Source of the DNA: Myxococcales bacterium
GTDB taxonomy: Bacteria > Myxococcota_A > Polyangia > Polyangiales > Polyangiaceae
Length of the DNA stretch: 37,564 nt
Direction of reading: 5' to 3'
Assembly (NCBI GenBank): GCA_023248815.1
Contig: JAHFDV010000006.1
Coordinates: forward strand, 1,658-39,221
Below, piece after piece: positions 32,754 through 37,564 of this stretch. The translations under genes were made by a program, and so were the position numbers. Each line of letters begins with the position of its first letter. Position 1 is the first letter of the stretch. The notes below the pieces were generated by a model that did no database searches, had not been told where the DNA came from, and saw only the letters and a program-made list of their open reading frames with translations.

Positions 32754-33066
32754 GCTCCCCGCGCGAGGCTCCGTCGCGGGTCCCGTTGATGTCCTCGTGC
32801 CGCAAGAAACAGCGCGCGGCGCTTGATTCCAGCTAGGCAGCGCGCGCTCACCTCGTGTAGACAGCGTCTCCCCGAACGGCTCGAGCGTTTGCGGCGCTCA
32901 ACGATACGAAGAGTCCTCGGCAGGAGAGACCCGTATCGGGTATGTATTGGCATGCATAATGTTGTGCCTGTATGCCTTTTATATGCATAGCCGTGTGGCT
33001 ATTCGGCATTTTGGTGCATACGCGTTGCGCTTTATGCAATTGTTGCTATTCATACTCTGAACACAC
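32754..33066. other. Intergenic region, AT-rich 3' half upstream of argC
   Basis: The first about 180 nt (32754-32935) are GC-rich with a CCCGCG/CGCGGG dyad that could terminate the hydrolase gene. From about 32936 to 33060 the DNA becomes clearly AT-richer than the rest of the window and full of TGCATA/TATGC half-sites, listed separately. A short open frame across the region (32750-32953, minus) has no coding character. Confidence 0.6.
32953..33038 (+). promoter_or_regulatory. Operator-like TGCATA/TATGC array upstream of argC
   Basis: TGCATA-N12-TATGC occurs twice, at 32953-32975 and 33015-33037, exactly 62 bp apart. A palindromic TATGCATA lies between them at 32982-32989. The sites directly precede the arginine operon. 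TGCATA-type half-sites resemble the ARG boxes described for actinobacterial ArgR, but with a different spacing, so ArgR is only a candidate binder. CATACT (33051-33056) ends 10 nt before the argC start and could be the -10. Confidence 0.6.
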
Positions 33067-34134
33067 GTGAAGACCGAAGGATCGCTCGAAAAATCAGGCA
33101 CTCGCGTGCGCGCGGCCGTGATCGGTGCGGCGGGGCTTACGGGCGTCGAGCTCACGCGCCTCCTGCTGGATCACCCAAACTTCGATCTCACGGTCGTGAC
33201 CTCGACGTCGGATGCGGGGAAGCGCGTCGACGACCTCTATCCAGGTATCGCGCGGACGAATCTCACGTACGTAGCGCCCGATCTCGAGTCGATCGCCAAG
33301 AACAACGACCTCGCGTTTCTTGCGGTGCCGCACACGGCCGCGATGGACATCGCGCCATTCCTTCTCGAGCGTGGCCTCAAAGTCGTCGACGTGTCGGCGG
33401 ACTTTCGTCTCAGCGACGCGAAGACCTACGAGAAGTGGTACGGCACGCCGCACAAGGCGCCGGCGCTTTTGGATGAAGCAGCCTACGGCTTGCCCGAGCT
33501 CTTTCCACTTTCTACGGCGCGTCTCGTCGCATGCGCTGGCTGCTATCCCACGGCGACGTTGCTTGCCGCAGCTCCCGCGATCGAAGCCAAGATCGTGACC
33601 TCACAACGCATCATCGTCGACGCGAAGTCAGGTGTCTCCGGCGCAGGTCGCGAGGCTCGGGCCGACTCGATGTACATCTCGGTGACGGAATCTATCGGCG
33701 CCTACAAGGTCGCTTCGCATCGGCACACTCCCGAAATCACGCAAGGCGTCGTCTCGCTCGGACTCGAAGGCGCGCGCATCGTCTTCTCACCGCACCTCGC
33801 GCCGATGTCGCGCGGCCTTCTCTCCACCGTCTATCTCGAAGTCGATCCCAAGATCGACACGAAGGCGGCGCTCGCGATCTACAAGGCGCGCTACGAAAAG
33901 TGCCCCTTCATCACGGTGCATCCGGCGGGACGCATGCCGAAGACCTCGGAAGTGCGCGGCTCGAACCGCGCGCACATCGGCCTCGTCGTCGACGACAACA
34001 GCCACACGCTCGTCGTTACTTCGGCCATCGACAATCTCGTGAAAGGCGCATCGGGACAGGCGGTCCAGTGCGCGAATTTGCTCTTCGGATTCGAAGAGAC
34101 GACCGGGCTCGCCACCCACGGCGCCATCGCTTGA
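33067..34134 (+). CDS. argC: N-acetyl-gamma-glutamyl-phosphate reductase
   Basis: This 355-residue enzyme reduces N-acetylglutamyl phosphate to the semialdehyde with NADPH, the third step of arginine synthesis. The nucleotide-binding loop is AAVIGAAGLTGVELTRLL, the catalytic Cys is C159 in ACAGCYPTATLLA, and HLAPMSRGLLSTVY and the conserved His region (VASHRHTPEI) are intact. GTG 33067 is the start; the first about 12 residues precede the domain. It is the first gene of argC-J-B-D-F; the gap to argJ is 10 nt. The operator-like array just upstream likely controls the whole operon. Confidence 0.97.
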   Translation: MKTEGSLEKSGTRVRAAVIGAAGLTGVELTRLLLDHPNFDLTVVTSTSDAGKRVDDLYPGIARTNLTYVAPDLESIAKNNDLAFLAVPHTAAMDIAPFLLERGLKVVDVSADFRLSDAKTYEKWYGTPHKAPALLDEAAYGLPELFPLSTARLVACAGCYPTATLLAAAPAIEAKIVTSQRIIVDAKSGVSGAGREARADSMYISVTESIGAYKVASHRHTPEITQGVVSLGLEGARIVFSPHLAPMSRGLLSTVYLEVDPKIDTKAALAIYKARYEKCPFITVHPAGRMPKTSEVRGSNRAHIGLVVDDNSHTLVVTSAIDNLVKGASGQAVQCANLLFGFEETTGLATHGAIA

Positions 34135-34144
34135 GGATTTTGTC

Positions 34145-35362
34145 ATGAAGGACACACGTTTCACGACGCGACTCGGAGGAGTGACTGCTCCCCTCGGCTT
34201 CTACGCTGCAGGCGTGAGCGCGGGCATTCGCAAGTCCGGCAAAAAGGACCTAGCGCTCATCGTCACGGACAAGCCGTCGCCGGCCGCCGCAATGTTCACG
34301 ACGAGCAGCATGGCCGCTCCGCCCGTCACGCTCTCTCGCAAACATCTCGAAGATGGGCTGCTTCGTGCGATCGTCGTCAACGCCGGTAACGCCAACGCGT
34401 GCACGGGCGACCAGGGCATCAAAGACGCAGAGGCGATGGCCGAAGCAACGGCGCGCGCCATCGACTGCAAGCCCAGCGACGTGCTCGTTTCTTCGACCGG
34501 AGTCATCGGCGTGCCCATGCCGATGAAAGTCGTTCTCGATGGAATTACGCGCGCGACGAAAGCGATCGACAAGAACGCCTGGCTCGACGCCGCCACCGCG
34601 ATCATGACGACCGACACGTACGAGAAGACGGCCGCCGTGTCGTTCCTCATCGACGACACGACGTACACCGTCGGCGGCATGGCCAAGGGCAGCGGGATGA
34701 TCGAGCCCAACATGGCGACGATGCTCGGCTTCCTCACCACCGACGCGCCGCTCGATTCCGCTGCCTGCGATGCCGCGCTCCGAGGCTCGGTCAACAAGAC
34801 GTTCAATCGCATCACCGTCGACTCCGACACTTCGACGAACGACATGTGCGTGCTCATCGCGAGTGGCGCAGCGGGCGGCGCGCCCATCACCAAAGATGAT
34901 CCGCGCTTCGAGATCGTCGCAGCGGCCATTCACGAAGTCTGTCGAGAGCTCGGCCGCATGATCGTGCGCGATGGCGAAGGCGCGACGAAGCTCATCACCG
35001 TCAACGTCTCGAACGCGGCCACCGACGAAGACGCCGTTGCCGCCGCGCGTTCGATCGCGAACTCGCCGCTCGTGAAGACGGCGATTTTCGGCAACGACGC
35101 CAACTGGGGTCGGGTGGCAGCCGCGCTCGGAAAATCCCCCGCGAAGGTGAACCCCAACAGCGTTCGGATCGAATTCGCAGGAATTCTCACGTGCGATAGC
35201 GGCACCGCGGTCCCCTTCTCCGAAGAAGACGCGGCAGCCGCGCTCGCGGGCGAAGAAGTGGAGATCGCCGTCGATCTCGGTCTCGGATTCGGCGCCGCGA
35301 CGATCTGGACGTGTGATCTCTCGTACGAATACGTCCGCATCAACGGGAGCTACCGAACGTGA
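34145..35362 (+). CDS. argJ: Glutamate N-acetyltransferase / ornithine acetyltransferase
   Basis: This 405-residue enzyme transfers the acetyl group from N-acetylornithine to glutamate, so the pathway recycles acetyl (the cyclic version). The self-cleavage site and nucleophile is T192 in KGSGMIEPNMATMLGFLTTD. NAGNANACTGDQG and SSTGVIGVPMP are also typical. GAGG lies eight nt before ATG 34145. The stop overlaps the argB start (GTGA), a translational coupling. It may be mono- or bifunctional; this cannot be told from the motifs alone. Confidence 0.97.
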   Translation: MKDTRFTTRLGGVTAPLGFYAAGVSAGIRKSGKKDLALIVTDKPSPAAAMFTTSSMAAPPVTLSRKHLEDGLLRAIVVNAGNANACTGDQGIKDAEAMAEATARAIDCKPSDVLVSSTGVIGVPMPMKVVLDGITRATKAIDKNAWLDAATAIMTTDTYEKTAAVSFLIDDTTYTVGGMAKGSGMIEPNMATMLGFLTTDAPLDSAACDAALRGSVNKTFNRITVDSDTSTNDMCVLIASGAAGGAPITKDDPRFEIVAAAIHEVCRELGRMIVRDGEGATKLITVNVSNAATDEDAVAAARSIANSPLVKTAIFGNDANWGRVAAALGKSPAKVNPNSVRIEFAGILTCDSGTAVPFSEEDAAAALAGEEVEIAVDLGLGFGAATIWTCDLSYEYVRINGSYRT

Positions 35363-36255
35363 GCGCCGACCTTCTCGCGCGCGCGCAGGACATCCTCTCG
35401 CGTGCGGGGACGGAAGGAGTTCGCGGAAAGGTCGTCGTCATCAAGGTCGGCGGCGCGTCGATCGCCGACGAAACGGTGCTCGCGCATCTCGCCGAAGATC
35501 TCGTCGTCCTGAAGCTCATGGGCACGAAGCCCGTAGTCGTGCACGGTGGCGGGCCAGACATCACCGCCCGCATGAAAGCGGCGGGCCTTCCTGTCGAGTT
35601 CGTGCGCGGCCTCCGCGTGACCTCGGAAGAAGCGATTCGCATCGTGCGCGAAGTCCTCGTCGACACGAACAACCGAGCCCTCGTCGAAGCGATCAACGCG
35701 CATGGCGACCACGCGGTGGGGCTCTCGGGCGATCGCGACAATCTCGTTCGAGCCAAAGTGCTCGATCCCGCGCTGGGACGAGTGGGGGACGTGACGGGGG
35801 TCGACGCCGATGCGCTCGCGCGCATTCTTGGCGAAGGTCGCATTCCCGTCATCGCGTGCTTGGGCACCGGTGAAGACGGAGGATCGCTCAACATCAACGC
35901 CGATCTCGTGGCCGCCGAGCTCGCACGCGCGATTCGCGGTGAGATCGTCCTCTTTCTCACGGACGTCGACGGCCTTTATCGAAACTTTCCGAACAAAGAT
36001 TCGATCATCGCCGAGCTCCCCGTCGAAGAAGCCGAACGCCTCCTCGCGAGCGGCGCGCTCGGCGCAGGGATGGCACCCAAGATCGATGCATGCGTACGCG
36101 TGATTCGCGCGGGTGCCGAGCGTGCGCGAATCGTGAACGCAAAGCGTGCAGGCGCGCTGCTCTCGGAGTTCGAGCCTTCTGCAATCACGGGAACCCGCGT
36201 CGTCGCGAAAGCCACGGGCGAGCTGAAGATCTCGACAGAAAAGGGTGCAAACTAA
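35359..36255 (+). CDS. argB: Acetylglutamate kinase
   Basis: This 298-residue amino-acid kinase phosphorylates N-acetylglutamate, the second step of the pathway. The phosphate-binding loop VIKVGGASIAD, VVVHGGGPDITARMKAAGL, AVGLSGDRDNLVRA and NINADLVAAELARAI are all present. An N-terminal helix of about 24 residues before the core (DLLARAQDILSRAG) is the feature linked to arginine-sensitive hexameric kinases, so feedback by arginine is plausible. The start is GTG 35359, which overlaps the argJ stop by four nt. The kinase ends one base before the argD ATG. Confidence 0.97.
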   Translation: MSADLLARAQDILSRAGTEGVRGKVVVIKVGGASIADETVLAHLAEDLVVLKLMGTKPVVVHGGGPDITARMKAAGLPVEFVRGLRVTSEEAIRIVREVLVDTNNRALVEAINAHGDHAVGLSGDRDNLVRAKVLDPALGRVGDVTGVDADALARILGEGRIPVIACLGTGEDGGSLNINADLVAAELARAIRGEIVLFLTDVDGLYRNFPNKDSIIAELPVEEAERLLASGALGAGMAPKIDACVRVIRAGAERARIVNAKRAGALLSEFEPSAITGTRVVAKATGELKISTEKGAN

Positions 36256-36256
36256 A

Positions 36257-37411
36257 ATGGGAGAGCTTTTCGATCGCACCGCGGAACTCGACCGCGCGTT
36301 CCACCTTCCGACCTACGCGCGAAAGAAGGTCATGTTCGTGCGCGGCGAGGGGATGACACTCTTCGACGACGACGGCAAAAAATATCTCGATTTCACGAGC
36401 GGAATCGGGGTGACGAGTCTCGGCCACGCGCACCCCAAGGTCGCAGCCGCGGTGGCTGCACAGATGACGAAGCTCGTGCACGTGAGCAACCTCTACTTCG
36501 TCGAGCACCGCGACGAGCTCGCCGCGAAGCTCATCCAGCTCTTTGGTCATCCCGGCAAAGTATTCTTTGCGAACTCGGGGGCAGAAGCCAACGAAGGCTG
36601 CTTCAAGCTCGCGCGTCGCTATGGCAAGGCGAAGCGGGGTGAGGGCGCCTCGACGATCATTTGTGCGAATGGATCATTCCATGGCCGTACGCTCGCGGCG
36701 CTTGCTGCGACGGGCCAAGCATCGAAGCAAGATGCGTTCAAGCCGCTTCCCGCCGGCTTCAAGCACGTTCCCTTGAACGACCTCGAGGCGCTCGCCGCGG
36801 CGATCACCGACGACGTCTGCGCGGTGATGGTCGAACCGATTCAAGGCGAGGGCGGCGTGTTTCCCTGCACCAAAGAATATCTGCAGGGTGCACGTAAACT
36901 CTGCGACGAGCGCGGCGTCCTGCTCATGTTCGACGAGGTGCAGACGGCATTTTATCGCACGGGAACGCCCTTCAGTTTCCAGCGCTGCGGCGTCGTGCCA
37001 GACGCAATGGCGCTCGCAAAGGCGATGGCCAACGGGCTTCCCATCGGCGCGATTCTCGCGGGCGAAAAGTGCATGGATACGCTGCAGCCGGGCGAGCACG
37101 GCTCGACGTTCGGCGGTGGTCCCGTGGTTTGTGCGGCAGCTCTCGCGACGCTCGCGGCTCATGAAGAGCAGAAGCTCGGCGAGAATGCGACGCGCGTCGG
37201 TAACTACTTTCTCGCGAAGCTCGAGGCGTTCAAAGAGTCTACGGGCCTCCTCACGGACGTTCGCGGCGCCGGCCTCATGGTCGGAGTCACGCTCAAAGAC
37301 CCCATTGCTGCGCGCGTCGTCGAAGAAGCTCGTGCCAAGGGCTTCGTGCTTCTCAACGTCGGCGATTCCATTCTCCGCTTCTTGCCACCGCTCGTCTGCA
37401 CCGAAAAATAG
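36257..37411 (+). CDS. argD: Acetylornithine aminotransferase, C-terminus cut by TAG
   Basis: This PLP enzyme converts N-acetylglutamate semialdehyde to N-acetylornithine. The visible 384 residues keep the active site: FFANSGAEANEGCFKLARR, GSFHGRTLAALA, D226 in LLMFDEVQTAFYRTG and the PLP-binding Lys K255 in DAMALAKAMANG, and STFGGGPVVCAAALATL. The start ATG 36257 is favoured over GTG 36245. The protein stops at TAG 37409-37411 after LRFLPPLVCTEK, where homologues usually run on into a final helix. The frame after the TAG stays open for 21 codons and looks like that helix. The gene may therefore be truncated by a nonsense mutation or read through. The enzyme core is present, so it might still be active. 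Confidence 0.95.
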   Translation: MGELFDRTAELDRAFHLPTYARKKVMFVRGEGMTLFDDDGKKYLDFTSGIGVTSLGHAHPKVAAAVAAQMTKLVHVSNLYFVEHRDELAAKLIQLFGHPGKVFFANSGAEANEGCFKLARRYGKAKRGEGASTIICANGSFHGRTLAALAATGQASKQDAFKPLPAGFKHVPLNDLEALAAAITDDVCAVMVEPIQGEGGVFPCTKEYLQGARKLCDERGVLLMFDEVQTAFYRTGTPFSFQRCGVVPDAMALAKAMANGLPIGAILAGEKCMDTLQPGEHGSTFGGGPVVCAAALATLAAHEEQKLGENATRVGNYFLAKLEAFKESTGLLTDVRGAGLMVGVTLKDPIAARVVEEARAKGFVLLNVGDSILRFLPPLVCTEK

Positions 37412-37498: not shown

Positions 37499-37564
37499 AT
37501 GAAATCGCTCACTGGAAGAGACCTTCTCACGCTCGGCGAGCTCTCGCCGGAAGAGCTCACGCTC
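37499..37564 (+). CDS. argF: Ornithine carbamoyltransferase, N-terminal fragment
   Basis: The gene begins at ATG 37499 with AAAGG nearby and is cut by the window end after 22 codons. The visible MKSLTGRDLLTLGELSPEEL matches the N-terminus of ornithine carbamoyltransferases, where a short strand is followed by LSPEEL. The position after argC-J-B-D supports the call. This enzyme makes citrulline from ornithine and carbamoyl phosphate. The active-site motif STRT is outside the window. Confidence 0.85.
   Translation, partial: MKSLTGRDLLTLGELSPEELTL

Follow-up and report, generated by a model that had tools for sequence, protein, structure and literature searches.

The region upstream of argC in the window (the whole 37,564-nt stretch of Myxococcales bacterium DNA analysed here) is very probably the promoter-operator of an argCJBDF(R) operon, with up to five putative ARG boxes for ArgR, and forms part of a Coriobacteriia-type module in a myxobacterium-like host. 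Judged from the sequence, the TGCATA/TATGC repeats found there most likely represent ordinary ArgR sites in a row, and their spacing probably reflects the register in which they are read.

A preliminary description of this DNA had reported two exact TGCATA-N12-TATGC elements 62 bp apart with TATGCATA between them, and we reproduced all of the coordinates: the elements are TGCATAATGTTGTGCCTGTATGC (32953-32975) and TGCATACGCGTTGCGCTTTATGC (33015-33037), both exact and on the forward strand, and TATGCATA lies at 32982-32989. The second element can also be read on the opposite strand at 33016-33038, giving a perfect outer palindrome TGCATA-N12-TATGCA. The pattern had no match in dinucleotide-preserving shuffles of the whole window, and the 6.2-Mb genome contains it nowhere beyond these two sites; the random occurrence throughout the genome that had been named as grounds for discarding the motif was thus not seen. 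The local drop in GC content was also confirmed by measurement, from ∼0.62 to 0.47 across 32900-33049.

The 23-bp element described earlier is a misregistered reading, in which two adjacent ARG boxes contribute their right half-sites, TGCATA and TATGC. In the 20-bp box geometry the half-sites begin at positions 4 (left, TGCAT) and 13 (right, ATGCA); the right halves of adjacent boxes are 18 bp apart start to start and therefore give exactly TGCATA-N12-TATGC. Both the N12 spacing and the 62-bp separation arise because the boxes repeat every 20-21 bp, 62 bp being three steps (20 + 21 + 21); the left half of the middle box (box 3) accounts for TATGCATA. Streptomyces ArgR sites are likewise contiguous 20-bp boxes, equivalent to 18-bp boxes with a 2-bp gap (PMC3293853, PMC5839063). 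The non-standard spacing had been taken to indicate a different or diverged regulator, possibly looping the DNA over about six turns; the 20/21-bp lattice explains both distances and renders looping unnecessary. The resemblance of the half-sites to the actinobacterial ArgR type stands, as they are of the TGCAT type. The elements and boxes are as follows, with box coordinates given as 20-nt frames and half-sites as left/right.

32953-32975, forward strand: first TGCATA-N12-TATGC, from the right half of box 1 to the right half of box 2
33015-33037, forward strand: second TGCATA-N12-TATGC, from the right half of box 4 to the right half of box 5; matches the Coriobacteriia element over the argC -35
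32940-32959, forward strand: ARG box 1, GTATGTATTGGCATGCATAA; TGTAT/ATGCA; 9/10 half-site letters, the best of the five
32960-32979, forward strand: ARG box 2, TGTTGTGCCTGTATGCCTTT; TGTGC/ATGCC; 6/10, left half weak; 20 bp past box 1
32981-33000, forward strand: ARG box 3, ATATGCATAGCCGTGTGGCT; TGCAT/GTGTG; 7/10, contains TATGCATA; 21 bp past box 2
33002-33021, forward strand: ARG box 4, TTCGGCATTTTGGTGCATAC; GGCAT/GTGCA; 8/10; 21 bp past box 3
33022-33041, forward strand: ARG box 5, GCGTTGCGCTTTATGCAATT; TTGCG/ATGCA; 6/10, over the likely -35; 20 bp past box 4

We scored the window with a matrix built from 37 published S. coelicolor ArgR boxes (PMC5839063 Table 1) and their reverse complements, the window being excluded from the matrix, and searched for chains of boxes in 20/21-bp steps, a spacing preset from the literature. 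Whether three, four, five or six boxes were required, the best chain in the 37.5-kb window starts at 32940, and box 1 has the sixth highest score among 37,545 positions. When the AT-rich stretch around the array was shuffled 1,000 times with dinucleotides preserved, no shuffle equalled the four-box chain (z = 5.0, p ∼0.001), and among spacings of 15-32 bp the 20/21-bp spacing was clearly the best. A plain count of half-site letters also puts the array first in the window (36/50). Most of the signal comes from boxes 1, 4 and 3; boxes 2 and 5 have weak left halves and, taken singly, poor matrix scores. Boxes 1 and 4 are imperfect palindromes of the TGCAT-N4-ATGCA type, and boxes 2, 3 and 5 are degenerate. 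"Five boxes" is therefore to be read as five predicted lattice positions, at least three of which are convincing. Duplication of a longer promoter segment was rejected as the origin of the two TGCATA-N12-TATGC copies: identity at a 62-bp shift is 27/60 (12-23 at other shifts) and falls mainly within the boxes.

The array stands before arginine biosynthesis genes and would overlap their promoter, an overlap that relies on a -35 placed in box 5 by alignment; a scan with the sigma-70 consensus detected no promoter here. The putative promoter and the genes that follow are listed below.

33025-33030, forward strand: likely -35 TTGCGC, by alignment to TTGAC of Coriobacteriia promoters
33047-33052, forward strand: possible -10 TATTCA, after a 16-bp spacer
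33067-34134, forward strand: argC, with start GTG at 33067 or GTG at 33106
34145-35362, forward strand: argJ, bifunctional
35359-36255, forward strand: argB
36245-37411, forward strand: argD, ending at an in-frame TAG ∼22 codons ahead of the next stop
37499-37564, forward strand: argF, first 22 codons (MKSLTGRDLLTLGELSPEELTL; compare MQNLMGRDLLTLGDLTPEDLEA of the L003 argF), cut by the contig end

ArgC matches TIGR01850 with 397 bits (cut-off 234). The earlier proposal that this region is the operator of the arginine operon was borne out, in that argC, argJ, argB and argD follow it and the motif recurs before argC of relatives. Past the argD TAG (37409-37411) the frame continues for ∼22 codons (IDAVLAALSSLLAPPSAATGS) that are similar to the C terminus of Coriobacteriia ArgD; either ArgD is truncated here, or the TAG is a sequence error close to the end of the contig. 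The argG and argH genes are adjacent to each other elsewhere in the genome (G000:C314:7190-9807, L163). No TGCAT half-site was found upstream of argG in this genome, and the array therefore seems to serve the argC operon only.

Among known ArgR operators, that of Streptomyces argCJBDR (S. clavuligerus, S. coelicolor SCO1580) is similar in having an adjacent pair of ARG boxes 20 bp apart before argC, with TGCAT/ATGCA half-sites. Its box B2 (CGATGCACGTTTATGCAATG) resembles box 5 of the window, and a third Streptomyces box lies 62 bp from B1. The boxes listed for S. coelicolor are one plus a pair, whereas the window has five positions in one row, and the ornithine carbamoyltransferase gene of S. 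coelicolor is under its own operator, unlike here. In E. coli the ARG half-sites are TGAAT/ATTCA, and usually two boxes are present. The 18-bp boxes of E. coli resemble the array in lying 2-3 bp apart (usually 3) and in overlapping promoters, and the boxes of B. subtilis argC are 11 bp apart (PMC3293853).

The nearest argC genes were found in Coriobacteriia and Anaerosomatales-like MAGs, with top matches of 55-64% identity; a search of 59 genomes from the host's own family and order gave a best match of 50%. In the ArgC tree the window sequence falls within the Coriobacteriia group with support of 99/95 and 32 own-order sequences fall outside it, a placement that holds at group level, with a reference set gathered by similarity. 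The gene order argC-J-B-D-F is also that of the Coriobacteriia (Anaerosomatales-like) argCJBDFRG operon; in L003 the order is argC-J-B-D-F-R-G, with argR directly after argF. The argC, argJ and argD products are 59-71% identical to those of the window, and argB 49-52%.

The promoters of these relatives carry the motif as well: [TC]GCATA-N12-TATGCG brackets the TTGAC -35 of Coriobacteriia argC, with the -10 ∼17 bp further. Nine of 19 Coriobacteriia genomes contain the strict pattern, mostly once and before argC, and the remaining hits are near the level of a reversed-pattern control. Absence before argC in related species, which had been put forward as evidence against an operator, was thus not observed. 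One strict copy is present in the Coriobacteriia, unlike the two copies plus a third half-site cluster between them in the window, and their -35 is TTGAC, compared with TTGCGC here. The box register is less clear in the Coriobacteriia argC upstream regions, where the argument is the conserved motif over the -35, and chain scores from the Streptomyces matrix did not separate these regions from ArgR-less ones (p = 0.67). ArgR is present in 18 of the 19 genomes. Four of the Coriobacteriia (L001, L004, L005 and L007) also have a second conserved inverted repeat, approximately TGAAT-N15-ATTCA, ∼49 bp upstream of TGCATA, with E. coli-like half-sites.

Most members of the host's own order have no such motif before argC; these are other argC lineages in mostly ArgR-less genomes. 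ArgR was found in 4 of 41 own-family genomes and was missing from 37, the check being made within the family. Three of the ArgR-bearing family genomes have a readable argC upstream region, and each shows 3-5 YGCATA/TATGCR half-sites; the other own-order argC loci (n = 28, full upstream) have 0-1, the single exception having one. These regions include near-perfect boxes, among them TGCATATTTATGCA, CGCATAGGTATGCG and CGCATAAACATGCG, whose neighbours follow at distances of 20-21 bp, and the ArgR proteins of the three contain the GTIAGDDT motif, which is linked to arginine binding. The association of half-sites with ArgR in the host's family is suggestive, the three ArgR-positive relatives being one clade and not independent. 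These family members (L154-L156) share with the window the TGCATA half-sites and standard boxes in 20-21-bp steps before argC, and differ from it in their argC lineage, in having argJ and argB in one open frame, and in boxes that reach or overlap the likely start codon. In two of them, L155 and L156 (reverse strand), ARG half-sites extend up to or across the probable ATG of argC (GCATATG, TATGCATA), which suggests an operator at the start codon of a leaderless mRNA. The argJ and argB homologies share one long open frame of 715-920 aa in L154, L155 and L156, suggesting an argJ-argB fusion near argR in the host's family.

These comparisons bear on whether a regulator other than ArgR might use the site, that is, a dimeric protein whose 24-bp inverted-repeat site spans the -35 and is present twice to allow looping. 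The outer palindrome is indeed exact and is conserved around TTGAC in Coriobacteriia, and no ArgR was found in the genome, which is 84% complete. We nevertheless consider such a regulator quite improbable, as nearly all of the motif-bearing relatives have argR, often in the same operon, the same half-sites make up standard TGCAT-N4-ATGCA boxes in the family members that have ArgR, and the 20/21-bp lattice covers N12, the 62-bp distance and the middle TATGCATA together.

The search for an argR homologue that the preliminary description had advised came up empty: neither the Pfam profile of the C-terminal domain nor a Coriobacteriia ArgR query detected ArgR in the 84%-complete genome. This absence would be explained by that incompleteness and by the contig end, which falls 22 codons into argF, ∼0.9 kb before the expected position of argR, the next gene in relatives; we therefore read it as uninformative. 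From the gene order of the relatives, argR is predicted to lie just past the contig end. The genome likewise yielded no intact argF. A TIGR00658 match at C587, examined as argF, is pyrB (aspartate carbamoyltransferase), and a weak match to PF01316 (Arg_repressor N-terminal; G000:C626:29302-29388, L084) lies in a 146-aa ORF that has no ArgR C-terminal domain and has phage-like neighbours, and was rejected as ArgR. In the literature searched, we found no mention of ARG boxes or ArgR together with Myxococcus or Myxococcota.

With ArgR undetected in 84% of the genome, lacking in 37 of 41 family genomes, and argG devoid of upstream half-sites, one may ask whether the host has lost ArgR and the array is a relic that no longer regulates. 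We regard this as unlikely: strict half-sites have been kept in two copies despite ameliorated codon usage, which suggests maintained selection, and the missing stretch is just where argF and argR should lie.

An arg operon that has a Coriobacteriia-like argC and ends the contig could also be a misassembled or contaminating Coriobacteriia fragment. Codon usage speaks against such an artefact, which we judge very improbable: argCJBD differ from host genes by a distance of 0.062, within the range of host gene groups (mean 0.070, maximum 0.097), compared with 0.144-0.194 from Coriobacteriia arg genes. In addition, the best identity to any Coriobacteriia argC is just ∼64%. The host-like codon usage therefore points to an old transfer rather than a chimeric contig; the operon together with its operator looks to have been acquired long ago from a distant bacterial group and to be resident now.

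We propose that the Coriobacteriia-type operon and its operator would have been taken up by the myxobacterium-like host early enough for codon usage to come to match. Box spacing of 20-21 bp corresponds to two helical turns and would place the half-sites on one face of the DNA, where ArgR, expected to be a hexamer with arginine as co-repressor, could bind. When arginine is plentiful, ArgR would occupy neighbouring boxes pairwise and, by analogy with known systems (PMC3293853), keep RNA polymerase off the putative -35 inside box 5; when arginine falls, ArgR would be released and the operon transcribed. How many of the five positions take part may vary from this scheme, in which binding, arginine dependence and promoter position are all predicted.

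The mechanism is of an ordinary, known kind, and the remaining interest lies in the length of the array and in the apparent transfer of an operon with its operator into a mostly ArgR-less lineage. More tentatively, the five-box array, which exceeds the usual pair, might bind at least two ArgR hexamers cooperatively over ∼100 bp, giving a steeper arginine response, and the module, complete with its repressor, might have reached that lineage from another phylum as a self-contained operon. An apparent new motif that turns out to be a shifted reading of tandem ARG boxes helps in annotating the ArgR operators of little-studied bacteria. Were argR confirmed beside argF, the locus would be a clear case of an enzyme operon crossing phyla with its own operator and repressor.
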